DNA of 64,000 nucleotides from Hyphomicrobiales bacterium. GTDB taxonomy: Bacteria > Pseudomonadota > Alphaproteobacteria > Rhizobiales > Beijerinckiaceae. Of this stretch, positions 33,124 to 44,071 are shown piece after piece. The notes beneath the pieces were generated by a model. It worked only from the letters and a program-made list of their open reading frames with translations. It did not search any database and was not told the DNA's origin. The stretch spans positions 1 to 64,000 of the forward strand of contig CANGPL010000006.1 of NCBI GenBank assembly GCA_947455725.1. The letters are read 5' to 3'. Each line of letters opens with the position of its first letter. Positions within the stretch are counted from its first letter, which is position 1. The translations under genes were made by a program, and so were the position numbers.

Positions 33124-34155
33124 ATGGTCGCTATAAAAGGCGGAGATATTGACCGGTTCGTCAAAAAGCCGGACCGCCGTTTTTCCGTGATCTTGGTGTA
33201 TGGCCCAGATGCCGGTTTGGTCCATGAGCGATGCCGGATGATCGCCCGCTCTCTGGTCGATGATCCGGACGATGCTTTTCAATTGATCCGCATGGACGGC
33301 GATGAATTAGGCAGCGATGCCACGCGCATTGTCGATGAAGCGAATACTTTAGGGCTATTCGGCGGCAGCCGAGCGATTTGGGTGCGCGTCGGGTCTCGGC
33401 AAATTAATTCGGCCATTGAACCGCTTCTATCGGCTAAGCCCGAAAACCCCGTTGTGATCGAAGCAGGTGATCTTCCTGCCAAACACGCGTTGCGCGCGGG
33501 TGTTGAAAAATCGAGCCACGCAGTAGCCCTGCCCTGTTATGCCGATGAAGTTCGGGATCTACCACGGCTCATCGATGAGATTTTGGCCGAGCACGGGCTC
33601 AAAGCGACAAACGAAGCCAAATCGCTGATGACCGGGCTGTTAGGCGCTGATCGGCTGTTATCGCGAAGCGAAATTGAAAAATTAGCGCTTTATGCTCGCG
33701 GTAAAGCAATGGTCGGGCCAGAAGACGTTGAGGCGATCATGGCCGATGCTTCGGCATTAGCGACAGATCTTCTTACAGACGCGGTTTTTATGGGCGATTC
33801 GGTCGGCGCAGATGCTGCGTTGCATCGCTCTCTCAAAGAAGGTCAGGATTCGGGCGTTATCGTCGGCGCACTCTTGCGCCACGCTTTGCTGCTGGCCAAA
33901 TCCCGGATCGGCCTTGACCGCGGGCAAACGATGCAAGATGTCGAACGCCAGGCCCGTATCTTTTTCAAGCGCAGCGCGGCCTTCCAACGCCATTTGTCGC
34001 TGTGGTCACTCTCAAGCCTTGAAAGCGCAATTACAACGCTCGGCGAAGCCCAAGCAGCGTGCCGAAAAAACGCAGCGCTCGGGGAAAGTCTCGTATCTCG
34101 GGCGTGCTTAACTTTGGCAATCGCCGCAAGGCGGTCCCAAGCCGGTCGAACTTAA
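33124..34155 (+). CDS. holA: DNA polymerase III subunit delta
   Basis: Clamp-loader wrench that opens the beta sliding clamp. The 343-residue protein has the delta fold: an N-terminal domain resembling an AAA+ ATPase without a functional P-loop (FSVILVYGPDAGLVHERC near residues 19-36) and a C-terminal collar domain (LLRHALLLAKSRIGL, RACLTLAIAARRSQ). Sequence conservation in HolA is low, so its place after leuS-lptE carries much of the weight. The ATG at 33124 is 18 bp after lptE. Its 3' end overlaps the convergent parB by 4 bp, where the gene orientation changes toward the origin. Confidence 0.9.
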   Translation: MVAIKGGDIDRFVKKPDRRFSVILVYGPDAGLVHERCRMIARSLVDDPDDAFQLIRMDGDELGSDATRIVDEANTLGLFGGSRAIWVRVGSRQINSAIEPLLSAKPENPVVIEAGDLPAKHALRAGVEKSSHAVALPCYADEVRDLPRLIDEILAEHGLKATNEAKSLMTGLLGADRLLSRSEIEKLALYARGKAMVGPEDVEAIMADASALATDLLTDAVFMGDSVGADAALHRSLKEGQDSGVIVGALLRHALLLAKSRIGLDRGQTMQDVERQARIFFKRSAAFQRHLSLWSLSSLESAITTLGEAQAACRKNAALGESLVSRACLTLAIAARRSQAGRT

Positions 34156-35024
34156 TCGCGCAAGCGACGGCAGACCGCATCCAATTGCTCAAGCGTCCGG
34201 TATTTGATCTTCAACTCGCCGCCACGTGAACCATGGGTGATCGATACCGATAGGCCGAGCACGTCTTCGATCGCCTTTTCCAACGCGCGGGTATCCGGAT
34301 CCTTTTCGCGACGACGTGCTGTCTGCGGAGCCTTTTCGGTTTTATCGTCTTCATTAGCGATACGCTCGACGTCACGGACGGTCATGCCGCGCTCGACGAT
34401 CCGGCGCGCCAAGGCTTCTGGATCTTTAACGGATAAAAGCGCCCGGCCATGGCCCGCCGTTAATTCACCACTCGCCAGCATCGCTTTGACGCTATCCGGC
34501 AAACGGGCCAAACGGATCGTGTTGGCGATATGGCTACGGCTTTTACCAATGATTTTTGATAAATCATTTTGCGAATAGCCATATTCGGCGATCAACTGCT
34601 CATAGCCCAACGCTTCTTCAAGCGCGTTGAGGTCCGAACGCTGGACATTTTCGATAATCGCGATTTCCAGCGCCTCTTTATCGCCTGCCTCAACGATGAG
34701 GATCGGAACCTCGTGCAAAGACGCGCGTTGCGCGGCCCGCCAACGGCGCTCACCGGCGATAATCTCGAATACATCGTCCATTCCGGGAATATTACGGACG
34801 AGAATCGGCTGAATAATTCCCTTTTCCCGGACGGAGTTCACAAGATCGTCGAGATCGGCTTCAACAAAGGTCCGGCGAGGATTGCGGGGGTTAGGGCGCA
34901 AAAATTCGGTCGGCACCCGTCTTTGACCCCGCGCGCGCTCGGCGGGAATGGCCGCTTCGCCAACATCGCCAATCAATGCCGCAAGTCCGCGACCCAAACG
35001 TGACCGGGTGGGCTCCTCAGCCAT
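34152..35024 (-). CDS. parB: Chromosome partitioning protein ParB
   Basis: CTP-dependent DNA-sliding clamp that loads at parS and organises the origin region. The 290-residue protein shows ParB box I near 45-55, the CTP-binding box II GERRWRAAQR (91-100), ENVQRSDLN (125-133), and the parS-binding helix-turn-helix (149-176, GYSQNDLSKIIGKSRSHIAN). A charged linker and a dimerising C-terminus (LKIKYRTLEQLDAVCRRL) follow. It is encoded downstream of parA in a rsmG-parA-parB order typical of bacterial chromosomes. Two perfect parS sites lie within 4 kb. Confidence 0.97.
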   Translation of the reverse strand: MAEEPTRSRLGRGLAALIGDVGEAAIPAERARGQRRVPTEFLRPNPRNPRRTFVEADLDDLVNSVREKGIIQPILVRNIPGMDDVFEIIAGERRWRAAQRASLHEVPILIVEAGDKEALEIAIIENVQRSDLNALEEALGYEQLIAEYGYSQNDLSKIIGKSRSHIANTIRLARLPDSVKAMLASGELTAGHGRALLSVKDPEALARRIVERGMTVRDVERIANEDDKTEKAPQTARRREKDPDTRALEKAIEDVLGLSVSITHGSRGGELKIKYRTLEQLDAVCRRLRD

Positions 35025-35063: not shown

Positions 35064-35915
35064 TTAGGCGGCCTGCAAGGCGCGCTCGCGTTGGATAACC
35101 TCAGAAGCAAGCCGCAAATAGGCCTGCGCACCTGTTGATTTGAGATCATACAACAAAACAGGCTTGCCGTGCGAGGGAGCCTCCGACACGCGAACATTGC
35201 GCGGGATCACCGTATCGTAAACCTTGGTACCCATGAAGGCGCGCACATCATCCACAACTTGCGAGCATAGATTGTTACGAGCATCGAACATGGTCAAAAC
35301 AATGCCGTGGATGGATAGGCCCGGATTAAGTGACTCGCGCACCTGATCAACGGTCTTAAGCAGCTGGCTTAAACCTTCAAGCGCGAAGAACTCGCACTGG
35401 AGCGGAACAACAACCGCATCAGCCGCGGCCATGGCATTAATCGTCAGCAAATTGAGCGATGGCGGACAATCGACAAGCACATAGGTAAAGCCCTCTTCAC
35501 CCGCCAGCATCTGGGTGACATGCAGGCTGGCAATCGCCTTTTTCAACTTGTGCGCGCGGTCGCGATCATTGGCAATCTCGAGCTCGAGACCCAAAAGATC
35601 CAAGGTCGATGGCGAGACAGAAAGACGTGGTACAGCGGTCACATGAATAGCGTCGGCCAGTTTCGCCTCGCCGGTCATAATATCATAGGTGGAAACCGTA
35701 CGGCTCTTTTGATCAATCCCAAGACCGGTCGAGGCGTTGCCCTGCGGATCGAGGTCGATGATCAAGACACGCTCGCCAATGGCAGCCAGTGCCGTTCCAA
35801 GATTGATGGCCGTCGTCGTCTTACCAACGCCACCCTTTTGATTGGCCAAGGCAAGGACGCGCGGCTTTTGACCGGAACGGGACAACCGGATGGAAGCGAG
35901 GTCGGACTTTTCCAT
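35064..35915 (-). CDS. parA: Chromosome partitioning ATPase ParA
   Basis: Nucleoid-binding ATPase that moves ParB-parS complexes apart. The deviant Walker A is at residues 27-34 (KGGVGKTT) of a 283-residue product. Walker A' (LIIDLDPQGNAS) and Walker B (YVLVDCPPSL) follow. It is of the short chromosomal Soj type, without an N-terminal helix-turn-helix. The ATG at 35915 follows AAAAGG; an upstream ATG at 35945 overlaps the rsmG stop (TGATG) and is an alternative that adds 10 residues. It is transcribed with rsmG and parB in the direction away from the origin. Confidence 0.95.
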   Translation of the reverse strand: MEKSDLASIRLSRSGQKPRVLALANQKGGVGKTTTAINLGTALAAIGERVLIIDLDPQGNASTGLGIDQKSRTVSTYDIMTGEAKLADAIHVTAVPRLSVSPSTLDLLGLELEIANDRDRAHKLKKAIASLHVTQMLAGEEGFTYVLVDCPPSLNLLTINAMAAADAVVVPLQCEFFALEGLSQLLKTVDQVRESLNPGLSIHGIVLTMFDARNNLCSQVVDDVRAFMGTKVYDTVIPRNVRVSEAPSHGKPVLLYDLKSTGAQAYLRLASEVIQRERALQAA

Positions 35916-35944
35916 GGCATAAACCTTTTCACGAAACCCGGGCA

Positions 35945-36610
35945 TCAAACCTTCAAAGAGGCTGCGATCACTTCGACAATATTACCGGTCGGATCGGTGA
36001 TGCTCTTGTGTATTTTCGCCTGTATATTCCAATATTTAGCGGCTTCCGTCAATTCCGCATCAACATCTTGTCCCTTTAGAAACAAGCCTATACACGGATT
36101 TTTGGTAATTTTCGCTTGCATTTCTAAAAGCTCTTTGAGCGATGCCAGCGCGCGCGCAGACAGACAATCGATCTTCTCAGGAAGAGCAGAAAAGGCGGCC
36201 TCGATCCGGCAATTATGGACCGTGACCGGCAAATGAAGGGTTCGTGCGACCTCTCGTAAAAAGGCGGATTTTCTACCATTGCTCTCCACAAGGTGCATAT
36301 GGAAGCCGGGTCGGTCCGCCAAGAGGATAGCGATCACCAATCCTGGGAATCCGGCGCCGGATCCGATATCGACCCATATTTTAGCCTCTTGGGCATAAGC
36401 CGTCAGCTGTGCGCTATCGGCGATATGGCGGGTCCAAATCGATGCCATCGTTCCGGGGCCGACAAGATTTTTGATCGTCTGCCAACGCTGTAGAAGCCCG
36501 ACATATTGGTCGAACATCGCCAGTGTTTCACGTGAAACAGAGAGAAGCGGCAAGGCTCGAAGACGATCTTCTTCAAGCTCACTCCCGACGGCACTCGGCC
36601 TACGCGCCAT
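35945..36610 (-). CDS. rsmG: 16S rRNA (guanine-N7) methyltransferase RsmG
   Basis: Methylates G527 of 16S rRNA using SAM. The 221-residue protein carries the SAM-binding [19 protein letters not shown] and the [19 protein letters not shown] continuation. It begins within the last codons of mnmG (11-bp overlap), and its stop touches parA, so mnmG-rsmG-parA-parB is one unit, known in other bacteria as the gid-par cluster. A perfect parS site lies inside its 5' coding region and is translated as VSRET. Confidence 0.95.
36524..36539. promoter_or_regulatory. parS centromere site 1
   Basis: TGTTTCACGTGAAACA, a perfect 16-bp palindrome identical to the consensus chromosomal parS. It lies inside the rsmG coding sequence, where it encodes Val-Ser-Arg-Glu-Thr, 1.5 kb from parB and about 6.4 kb from the presumed origin. 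It is the loading site for ParB. Confidence 0.95.
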
Positions 36611-38523: not shown

Positions 38524-38539
38524 TGTTTCACGTGAAACA
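38524..38539. promoter_or_regulatory. parS centromere site 2
   Basis: A second perfect TGTTTCACGTGAAACA palindrome, in the 36-bp gap between the end of mnmE and the start of mnmG. It is exactly 2,000 bp from site 1 and about 4.4 kb from the presumed origin. Confidence 0.95.
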
Positions 38540-41800: not shown

Positions 41801-42853
41801 TTAACCCCGTACGCGCTTAATCAGTCTTTCGACGTGAGCGACTGGCGTTTCTGGCACAATGCCATGACCGAGATTGAAAATATGGGGACCTTGTGAAAAC
41901 GCCTCAATAATCGCATCGACACGCCGATCCATCTGGTCCCCACCCGCAACAACCGATAGCGGGTCCAAATTACCTTGAACGGGCTTTAACGGCTGCAATG
42001 TAGCGGCCGCCCATTTCTGATCCGTGCCCCAATCGATCGCAACCGCGTCAGCACCCGTCTTCGACGCGTATTGAAGATGATTAGCGCCAGATCCACGTCC
42101 AAAAACGATAAATTTCGCCTGCGGATGCTTCATCCGAACGCCTTCAATGATCCGTCTAATCGGCCCAATCGACCATTGCTCGATCCCGTCTGCCGTCAAC
42201 GCGCCTGCAAAGCTCTCAAAAATCTGCAATGCATCGACGCCCGCTTCAACTTGCCGGCAAAGATAATCAATCGACGAAACAACAAGCAGATTGATCAAAC
42301 GCTCTAAATATTCAGGATTGCGATAGGCTACCAATCGAATAGGTGCCAATTCCGGCGTACTTTTACCGGCGATCATGTAACTCGCCACCGTCCAAGGCGC
42401 GCCACAAAAGCCTAAAAAAGTCGTTTCTTTCGGTAACGCCGCTTTAACCCGACCAATCGTCTCAAAAACAGGCCCTAATCGATCAAGATCAATCTGACCT
42501 TTCAATTCGGAGAGATTATTTTCGACAAGCAATGGCGGAAGGCGCGGACCTTCATTCTCAACAAAAGATACACCTTGACCTAAAGCATCGGGAACAACCA
42601 GAATATCCGAAAACAAAATAGCTGCATCAAAACCAAACCGACGAATGGGCTGCAGCGTGACTTCGGTCGCTAAATCCGGCGAATAACAAAAATCGATAAA
42701 AGATTTTGAACGCGCTCTTACTTCTCGATATTCTGGAAGATATCGGCCTGCCTGCCGCATAATCCAAATCGGCGGCCTCTTTTGTTGGATGCCATTGAGC
42801 GTTGCTAGCAAGGGTTTATCGACAGAAGCGACACTATTCACCGATTGGGTCAA
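41801..42853 (-). CDS. hemE: Uroporphyrinogen III decarboxylase
   Basis: Cytosolic enzyme removing four carboxyl groups from uroporphyrinogen III to make coproporphyrinogen III. The N-terminal signature PPIWIMRQAGRYLPEYR holds the substrate-binding Arg, and ILFSDILVVPDALG the catalytic Asp. GFCGAPWTVASYM is also present. At 350 residues it has the normal length. The start is TTG at 42853, supported by AAGGAA 7 nt upstream. That ribosome binding site overlaps a CtrA box, so its expression is probably linked to origin activity, as in Caulobacter. It borders the replication origin. Confidence 0.96.
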   Translation of the reverse strand: MTQSVNSVASVDKPLLATLNGIQQKRPPIWIMRQAGRYLPEYREVRARSKSFIDFCYSPDLATEVTLQPIRRFGFDAAILFSDILVVPDALGQGVSFVENEGPRLPPLLVENNLSELKGQIDLDRLGPVFETIGRVKAALPKETTFLGFCGAPWTVASYMIAGKSTPELAPIRLVAYRNPEYLERLINLLVVSSIDYLCRQVEAGVDALQIFESFAGALTADGIEQWSIGPIRRIIEGVRMKHPQAKFIVFGRGSGANHLQYASKTGADAVAIDWGTDQKWAAATLQPLKPVQGNLDPLSVVAGGDQMDRRVDAIIEAFSQGPHIFNLGHGIVPETPVAHVERLIKRVRG

Positions 42854-42864
42854 AAAGAGATTCC

Positions 42865-42879
42865 TTAAGATATTCTTAA
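42865..42879. promoter_or_regulatory. CtrA-type binding site TTAA-N7-TTAA
   Basis: TTAAGATATTCTTAA matches the CtrA consensus spacing exactly. It sits 12 bp before the hemE start codon and overlaps the hemE ribosome binding site. In Caulobacter CtrA silences the origin and the adjacent hemE-directed promoter. Confidence 0.7.
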
Positions 42880-42919
42880 TTTTTGTTGTTGTTAGACAGG
42901 GATTAAAGATAACACGAAC

Positions 42920-42928
42920 TCATCCACA
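42920..42928 (+). promoter_or_regulatory. DnaA box candidate (TCATCCACA)
   Basis: One mismatch to the consensus TTATCCACA, in the hemE-proximal part of the presumed origin. Confidence 0.6.
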
Positions 42929-42935
42929 GAATGTC

Positions 42936-42951
42936 CACGGTTTTGACCGTG
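42936..42951. repeat. Inverted repeat in the presumed origin
   Basis: CACGGT and ACCGTG form a perfect 6-bp stem with a 4-nt loop, just right of the first DnaA-box candidate. Confidence 0.5.
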
Positions 42952-42967
42952 TTTGTCAATTTTGTTG

Positions 42968-42982
42968 GACAAAAATTTTGTC
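42968..42982. repeat. AT-rich palindrome in the presumed origin
   Basis: GACAAAAATTTTGTC is a perfect odd palindrome (7 bp arms, one central base) directly before the AT-rich stretch at 42986-43040, a candidate unwinding region. Confidence 0.55.
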
Positions 42983-43020
42983 ATGTTTAAATTCTAATAG
43001 CGCCTAAATTTATCTAATCA

Positions 43021-43033
43021 AATCAATTGTTTA
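43021..43033 (+). promoter_or_regulatory. IHF binding site candidate
   Basis: AATCAATTGTTTA fits the IHF consensus WATCAA-N4-TTR without mismatch and lies in the middle of the presumed origin, next to the AT-rich stretch. IHF bending is known at the Caulobacter origin. Confidence 0.6.
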
Positions 43034-43073
43034 AAACTAACCCGTCAATTAGGTCTAGGTCGCGGCTAAAAAT

Positions 43074-43082
43074 TTATCCCCG
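43074..43082 (+). promoter_or_regulatory. DnaA box candidate (TTATCCCCG)
   Basis: Two mismatches to TTATCCACA; the TTATCC core is intact. Directly followed by a GANTC site (GATTC), the CcrM methylation target. Confidence 0.45.
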
Positions 43083-43185
43083 ATTCTGCCAAGTTCCAGG
43101 TTGCCCGTTGCTCGAAAAAGGCATCTGTTGATGAAATTACATCGCTAGGAGATACGGGTTTTCGACCCCTCCCTCTTGGCCTGAT

Positions 43186-43194
43186 TTATCCCCA
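43186..43194 (+). promoter_or_regulatory. DnaA box candidate (TTATCCCCA)
   Basis: One mismatch to TTATCCACA, 29 bp before the ppsR start codon. A weaker nonamer GCGTCCACA follows at 43207-43215, so ppsR expression may respond to DnaA. Confidence 0.55.
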
Positions 43195-43222
43195 TTACCC
43201 GTCAAAGCGTCCACAGCTTGCC

Positions 43223-44071
43223 ATGATCGGATTGACTGATTTGAACCGCAACTATTTCCATCTTCATCTCGTGTCTGATTCAACTGGCGAAACCCTGATT
43301 GCGGTTAGCCGAGCCGCAGCCGCGCAATATGAAACCGTTTCAGCGATTGAACATGTCTACCCGCTCATCCGAAATGAAGCGCAGCTTGATCGCGTGATCG
43401 TGGGACTGGAAAACGCGCCCGGTATCGTTCTTTACACGCTTGTTGATCAAGTTTTAGCGAGACGGCTTGAAACTGCATGCGCTGACTTTGGTTGCCCCTG
43501 TCTTTCGGTGCTCGATCCGGTTTTGTCGATTTTTCAAGCCTATTTGGGCTTAAGTTATACCCACCGCCCTGGTGCCCAGCACGTTTTGAATTCGGATTAT
43601 TTCAAACGCATCGATGCGCTTAATTACACGATGATGCATGATGATGGCCAACAGGGGCAGGATTTGGATGCCGCCGATATTATTTTGGTCGGTGTGAGCC
43701 GCACATCTAAAACGCCAACGAGCATTTATCTCGCTAATCGGGGGTATAAAACGGCGAATGTTCCGCTGGTCCCCGGCATCGCTACACCCGCTGGGCTTGA
43801 AACCGTTAAAAAGCCATTGGTTGTTGGCTTGGTTGCGAGTCCCGAGCGAATTGTCCAAATCCGGCAAAATCGGCTTTTGACATTAAATGCCCCCGAAAAC
43901 TCGCCCTATATTGATAAAACGGCGGTTACAGAAGAAATCGCGCACTCGCGACGGCTTTGCGCACGTCATAATTGGCCTATGATTGATGTTTCCCGCCGCT
44001 CCATCGAGGAAACTGCCGCAGCCATCATCGATCTATACCGCGATCATCTGCGCCAGCGGGAAATTTCATGA
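43223..44071 (+). CDS. ppsR: DUF299 pyruvate-dikinase regulatory kinase/phosphotransferase
   Basis: Bifunctional ADP-dependent kinase and Pi-dependent pyrophosphorylase that switches phosphoenolpyruvate synthase or pyruvate phosphate dikinase off and on. The 282-residue protein has the family N-terminus [14 protein letters not shown] and the nucleotide-binding [15 protein letters not shown] near residue 156. It is the homologue of the Rickettsia RP001-type gene that flanks the origin in Caulobacter. Its target enzyme is not in the window. It starts a run ppsR-maf-aroE-coaE-dnaQ whose first four junctions overlap or nearly touch. Confidence 0.93.

Follow-up and report, generated by a model that had tools for sequence, protein, structure and literature searches.

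Where does chromosome replication begin in the organism from which this DNA was recovered? The window (the whole 64,000-nucleotide stretch analysed) belongs to a Beijerinckiaceae-like alphaproteobacterium, and judging by ppsR its closest named relatives are Beijerinckiaceae, Hyphomicrobiales and similar MAGs, followed by Alsobacter. The original prediction placed oriC in a gene-free 369-bp segment between hemE and ppsR. We consider it very probable that this gap is the chromosomal replication origin, acting by the mechanism proposed below; the prediction is supported by synteny, conserved site cores, adjacent parABS and a skew minimum in a closed genome of the same family (G020). The gap and its borders are as follows.

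41801..42853, minus strand: hemE, uroporphyrinogen decarboxylase, left border (TIGR01464 above cut-off)
42854..43222, no strand: predicted oriC, the intergenic region between divergent hemE and ppsR
43223..44071, plus strand: ppsR-like kinase/pyrophosphorylase gene (DUF299, COG1806), right border (NF003742 above cut-off; PF03618)

The predicted coordinates proved correct: hemE starts at 42853 and ppsR at 43223, and the 369 bp between them (40% GC, 60% AT) contain no ORF of at least 80 amino acids. The hemE start codon is TTG, on the minus strand and with AGGA upstream, while that of ppsR is ATG on the plus strand. Because the N-terminal residues of HemE differ between relatives, the true hemE start is uncertain. 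The ppsR product passes the general PPDK/PEPS-regulator model NF003742 and falls below the cut-off of the narrower PpsR equivalog model NF049928. To the left, on the minus strand, follow hemE, a UPF0093 gene that we take to be hemJ, rho, mnmE, mnmG, rsmG, parA and parB; to the right, on the plus strand, ppsR, maf, aroE, coaE and dnaQ, where the best matches of maf are Maf-like models with scores just or well below their cut-offs. Transcription runs away from the gap on both sides (hemE and the genes beyond it leftward, ppsR to dnaQ rightward), which we counted in favour of an origin. The genome encodes DnaA, CtrA, IHF alpha, IHF beta, GcrA and one protein with a RAMA domain, a domain also carried by CcrM. 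As predicted, dnaA is not nearby: it is absent from the window and has its sole match on contig C19. An Rfam search of 41-45 kb gave no match, and a promoter and terminator scan of 42700-43400 returned chance-level signals only.

Conservation of this gene order is one line of evidence. Of 30 loci from the genome itself and its relatives, 29 (the window's own included) have hemE and ppsR diverging from a gap of 358-622 bp, and among further genomes of the family and order the divergent pair recurs in 19 of 20 regions, with gaps of 371-1099 bp. In other orders it is present in 26 of 28 loci, these being the best-scoring among the 78 genomes with a match, of 114 searched. Among the 80 loci of the genome_contigs set, hemE adjoins ppsR in 44. 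In the remaining 36, one of which has only 412 bp upstream, we found no hemE beside ppsR; we counted these against an origin, together with the genomes that gave no ppsR match (5 of 60 relatives and 36 of 114 in the class sample). Thirty-two of the 36 loci are titled Bradyrhizobium or Afipia, and hemJ is the next gene found before ppsR in 35. Loci L073-L113, mostly from these two genera, have no hemE match between hemJ and ppsR, and their other gene order is largely preserved; there hemE may be divergent, relocated or replaced.

Some published origins occupy the same place. As the original prediction held, the location is that of the Caulobacter crescentus origin, Cori: the hemE and COG1806 (ppsR/DUF299) borders agree with those in PMC1914354, and DnaA, CtrA and IHF sites are shared (PMC1914354, PMC4468827). 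The Rickettsia prowazekii origin, also between hemE and a COG1806 gene, is 384 bp long and AT-richer than its genome (PMC1914354 Table 1), but its 82.6% AT compares with 60% in the window's gap. The original prediction also held that the order maf-aroE-coaE-dnaQ is shared with Rickettsia; our comparison with Rickettsia covered the hemE and COG1806 borders given in that paper. Wolbachia and relatives have origins predicted beside hemE in silico by DnaA, CtrA and IHF sites, but there the other border gene is COG1253 and the CtrA sites range from none to several (PMC1914354). Measured by the criteria of the same paper, the gap has border genes (hemE/COG1806) homologous to those of its relatives, and its 369 bp lie within 200-1000 bp. 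Among origins of the hemE/COG1806 class it is an ordinary one.

For the counts that follow, 74 gaps (44 from the genome_contigs set, the window's own and 29 from the loci of the genome and its relatives) were reduced to 62 distinct ones, and 19 of the 20 further regions brought these to 81; L220, without hemE, was dropped, and L205 contributed the gap of 1099 bp. The 20 regions came from 25 genomes that had a match and no locus, with G042, G044, G049, G011 and G046 left out. A greedy cut at 62% identity sorted the gaps into 60 clusters. Expectations are from simple letter shuffles for word over-representation and from dinucleotide-preserving shuffles for CtrA spacers, DnaA boxes, DnaA cores and IHF sites.

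Aligned with L034-L040 (eight rows), the window's gap resolves into short conserved islands amid diverged DNA. In ten rows of the genus, TTATCCCC occurs in 10, TTATCCCCA in 8, TCCACA in 7, TCATCCACAG and TGTTGAT in 6 each and CTGTTGAT in 5. Similarity to close relatives, in binding sites particularly, is a further criterion of PMC1914354, and both the alignment and the word counts display it. Across the order, TCCACA is found in 67 of the 81 distinct gaps (7.7 in letter shuffles), TTATCCCC in 22 (0.5) and CTGTTGAT in 19 (0.2); the most over-represented words are of origin type. TCCACA reaches 3.45 per kb in gaps vs 0.57 in 82 other noncoding runs taken from 80 related loci, and GANTC 8.92 per kb in the 81 gaps vs 2.89 in those runs. 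Spacings of 11, 10 and 21 bp between DnaA-like cores recur in 18, 10 and 8 of the 60 clusters, respectively. In the window's gap we recognized the following elements.

42859..42863, no strand: GATTC, candidate CcrM methylation site (GANTC enriched in gaps)
42865..42879, plus strand: perfect CtrA box TTAAGATATTCTTAA, TTAA-N7-TTAA, with 11 bp between it and the hemE start codon
42892..42906, plus strand: second CtrA-like box, degenerate, TTAG-N7-TTAA (5/10 genus rows have a near match, at offset 38-39)
42920..42928, plus strand: predicted DnaA box TCATCCACA, one mismatch (TCATCCACAG in 6/10 genus rows)
42931..42939, plus strand: weak DnaA-like box, TCCAC core, 11 bp after the previous core (the spacing of 18/60 clusters)
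42987..43036, no strand: AT-rich stretch, 80% AT over 50 bp, candidate unwinding element
43021..43033, plus strand: IHF consensus match AATCAATTGTTTA, also given as WATCAANNNNTTR (same offset in 3/10 genus rows)
43074..43082, plus strand: weak DnaA-like box TTATCCCCG (genus alignment)
43082..43086, no strand: GATTC, candidate CcrM methylation site (GANTC enriched in gaps)
43125..43132, plus strand: CTGTTGAT element, 64 bp before the DnaA-like core at 43189
43186..43194, plus strand: DnaA-like box TTATCCCCA, one mismatch (TTATCCCCA in 8/10 genus rows)
43207..43215, plus strand: weak DnaA-like box, TCCACA core (genus alignment)

The original prediction listed several DnaA-box-like nonamers, two of them with one mismatch, an IHF consensus and an AT-rich stretch, and all of these were recovered. 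Exactly two one-mismatch DnaA nonamers lie in the gap, at 42920 and 43186, vs 0.10 expected (P = 0.0055), while the whole window has 12 vs 8.6 expected, which is chance level. None of the nonamers in the gap is a perfect E. coli-type DnaA box, a point that we counted against an origin. The TCC[AC]C core occurs five times in the gap, always on the plus strand, where 1.2 are expected (P = 0.0035). The weak box at 43074 includes ATTTATCCCC, a 10-nt direct repeat with its other copy at 43184. The weak DnaA sites of Cori fall into two classes, G-boxes and W-boxes; the window has predicted TCATCCACA and TTATCCCC boxes instead of the T-to-G change described for Cori. The gap has one IHF match, at 43021 (P = 0.031), and the whole window two, vs 1.94 expected, again chance level. 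In the three genus rows that share the match the consensus is exact and the spacer letters differ, and across the order 11 of 81 gaps have an IHF match vs 1.6 in shuffles. The AT-rich stretch reaches 80% AT across 50 bp from 42987. The gap as a whole (60% AT) exceeds the window's 2-kb steps (43-52% AT); PMC1914354 expects an AT content above that of the genome, for which the window is our yardstick. By sequence match it also holds the DnaA and IHF sites that the paper expects in excess of other noncoding DNA; our comparison covered shuffled sequence and, for TCCACA, the 82 other noncoding runs of related loci. The CtrA, DnaA, core and IHF signals within the window alone are each modest.

The palindromes listed in the original prediction fared differently. 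Two short ones are readable at 42936-42951 and 42968-42982, and four inverted repeats with arms of at least 9 nt exist (three imperfect, the fourth a perfect pair of 9-nt arms 82 nt apart). The genus alignment does not keep the two palindromes strictly, and we rejected palindromes as an origin feature.

From these elements we infer DnaA, IHF and CtrA binding, unwinding and fork start. DnaA would bind the box pair on the hemE side and the weaker group on the ppsR side, and IHF would bend the AT-rich middle. This middle would then open and give rise to two diverging forks, after which the new origins would be separated with the help of ParB bound at two parS sites, 4-6 kb away.

The role of CtrA requires separate treatment, as the original prediction called this an origin of the CtrA-controlled type on the strength of a perfect CtrA box. 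The box is present at 42865-42879. A gap of such make-up contains at least one by chance with P = 0.033 under dinucleotide shuffling, so the window's box is weak evidence when taken alone. In the genus, a perfect box is located at offset 11 in 6 of the 10 rows and at offset 35 in one, with none in three (offsets are measured from the hemE match, not necessarily the start codon). Across the order, perfect TTAA-N7-TTAA occurs in 37 of 81 gaps, where shuffles give a mean of 0.96 and a maximum of 3, and in 30 of the 60 clusters. Spacers of 3-6 and 8-14 bp give 0-4, so the enrichment is limited to the 7-bp spacer. Seventeen of the 37 perfect boxes have TTAAC in both halves. Among noncoding runs of the same 80 related loci, the box is found in 0 of the 82 other runs vs 13 of the 45 upstream of ppsR; among gaps of other orders, 3 of 26 have it, vs 0-1 at other spacers. 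The encoded CtrA has 81% identity to the typed C. crescentus protein and scores above the NF045991 cut-off. The claim of CtrA control has partial support: the regulator is encoded and its motif is conserved in much of the order, but the window has a single perfect box, placed where hemE starts.

Beyond the genus, 27 of 30 boxes are in the middle of the gap, at a distance of 127-245 bp from the hemE match. A FastTree tree of hemE, with local supports only, groups all ten rows of the genus in one clade (99), nested in a clade of 16 (87); of the other six rows in the latter, five have a mid-gap box and one has none. The box-position label needs 17 changes over the whole tree. The simplest reading would be that the mid-gap box was lost, and a hemE-side box gained, in the window's genus.

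CtrA probably binds the hemE-side box, restraining initiation, hemE transcription or both, and for a direct effect on initiation the odds appear about even. Nearly as probable, at a little under an even chance, is that the gap is oriC and the box only controls the hemE promoter (or is a GcrA/CcrM promoter element resembling a CtrA box), with no direct action of CtrA on replication. The box begins 12 bp from the start codon of hemE; this position, its absence from three genus rows and the chance level of a single box all suit such a promoter role. The mid-gap position of most boxes outside the genus and the enrichment of only the 7-bp spacer (37 of 81 vs 0-4) speak against it. In a Caulobacter-type origin, several strong CtrA sites overlap or adjoin DnaA boxes; here the single perfect box is 40 bp from the first DnaA box and the degenerate one 13 bp from it, with no overlap.

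Sinorhizobium meliloti belongs to the same order as the window's organism, and Hyphomonas neptunium to a different one. Published work on CtrA at alphaproteobacterial origins bears on both readings. The S. meliloti origin is reported to be without CtrA motifs and unbound by CtrA (PMC4433202), whereas the window's perfect box is common to many relatives; a lack of origin binding is likewise reported for B. abortus CtrA (PMC2877005). Cori carries five CtrA sites of high affinity, compared with one perfect and one degenerate predicted box in the window, and weakening all five only mildly perturbed replication in laboratory culture (PMC4468827). These three reports favor a promoter role. The same review text, in contrast, has C. 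crescentus CtrA thought to exclude DnaA from the origin, which favors a direct role; it also states that CtrA sites were not seen in non-Caulobacter origins, with R. prowazekii a possible exception (PMC4468827). CtrA sites have been predicted in Wolbachia and Rickettsia origins (PMC1914354), and in H. neptunium a CtrA site beside the origin was bound in ChIP-seq (PMC7200025), whereas in the window binding is only predicted. Within the openly licensed literature, among the titles and passages covered, we found no report of CtrA boxes at origins of this group. The conserved CtrA motif is the one unexpected feature of the gap, in an order where two studied species reportedly lack CtrA at the origin.

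Together with the phased CTGTTGAT, the conserved CtrA box lifts the gap above routine annotation. A TCC[AC]C core lies 63-65 bp downstream in 18 of the 24 gaps that contain CTGTTGA (12 of 18 clusters), where chance is 0.038 per position. In these 18 gaps the distance from CTGTTGA to the ppsR match ranges from 98 to 224 bp; because the distance to the core is fixed, the element is tied to the DnaA group and not to the gene. In other orders the element appears, as CTGTTGA, in 3 of 26 gaps, at offsets that vary. We considered CTGTTGAT as an IHF site, since its reverse holds ATCAA, and rejected this, as by eye the TTR half is absent in the four contexts compared (L004, L008, L014 and L028). Among the titles listed by a text search for CTGTTGAT together with oriC, none concerns origins of this group.

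A more general model, which we advance tentatively and regard as rather more likely wrong than right, is that in Beijerinckiaceae and several other Hyphomicrobiales families CtrA would act directly on oriC via a single conserved TTAA-N7-TTAA box (often TTAAC-N6-TTAAC), unlike what is reported for S. meliloti and Brucella. The genus would have relocated its box to the hemE edge while the origin stayed, and part of the group would share CTGTTGAT, separated by about six helical turns from the DnaA boxes on the ppsR side, as the site of a further origin-binding factor.

Whatever the role of CtrA, the identification as oriC also draws on partition genes and sites.

34152..35024, minus strand: parB (ParB_N, HTH_ParB, ParB_C)
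35064..35948, minus strand: parA (AAA_31, CbiA)
36524..36539, no strand: perfect parS TGTTTCACGTGAAACA, within rsmG
38524..38539, no strand: perfect parS TGTTTCACGTGAAACA, at the 5′ end of mnmG

These genes and the two perfect parS sites are all within 4-9 kb of the gap, the parS sites alone at 4-6 kb; a parS core is found in 63 of 80 related loci. The two palindromes, which the original prediction did not list, are exactly 2000 bp apart. The sequences show the location, the motif conservation and the linked parS.

GC skew, a shift of which at the site is also among the criteria of PMC1914354, was used as a further guide. The assembly comprises 128 contigs, and on the window's contig (C6) skew passes from -0.11 at 40-44 kb to +0.05 at 44-48 kb. 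After 48 kb it is again negative to 64 kb and then near zero, which we counted against an origin. The closed 4.24 Mb genome of the same family (G020; 40 sampled stretches) has a two-arc skew pattern, with a mean of +0.016 from 745 kb to 2.635 Mb and -0.018 elsewhere, and its chromosome-wide sampled minimum falls between the samples at 640 and 745 kb. In contiguous sequence from 605 to 805 kb, the cumulative G-C minimum is at 706 kb, about 2.5 kb from the hemE-ppsR gap at 703.4-703.8 kb, with parS cores at 714 and 717 kb. Two other closed genomes, each also sampled in 40 stretches, have no two-arc pattern: in G054 the cumulative minimum is at the contig end and the site at 3.77 Mb, and in G031 the detrended minimum is at 2.15 Mb and the site at 5.165 Mb. 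Because they lack this pattern, their skew is neither support nor strong counter-evidence, so that one closed relative speaks for oriC and two are uninformative.

These data bear on whether the gap could be an ordinary regulatory region between divergent housekeeping genes, with the origin elsewhere. Skew support is missing in two of three closed genomes, and the gap's CtrA match and its IHF match, each taken by itself, have P values near 0.03. Gap length, gene pair, DnaA-core enrichment, the 10/11/21-bp core spacings, parS linkage and the G020 minimum fit an origin instead, and we regard the regulatory reading as very improbable. Even less probable is a former origin, conserved as a site while another is now used: the chromosome, in so many contigs, cannot be viewed whole, but present use is indicated because close species keep the core motifs amid much diverged intervening sequence.

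The nearest named relatives of this lineage (L034-L040) are all metagenome-assembled genomes, and identification of the gap as oriC gives the lineage a well-supported origin. The analysis also shows a CtrA box at the origin to be common in Hyphomicrobiales beyond the two species where CtrA was sought at the origin and not found. A mid-gap box is present in named Alsobacter, Rhodoblastus and Camelimonas strains, so direct vs indirect restraint by CtrA is testable there.

When examining the wider neighbourhood of the gap, we noted that in three Rhodoblastus loci (L049, L051 and L068) rho, mnmE and mnmG are on the ppsR side, and that L045 has an inversion of the block from mnmE to parB. In these Rhodoblastus loci and in L045 the origin region has been rearranged on one side.
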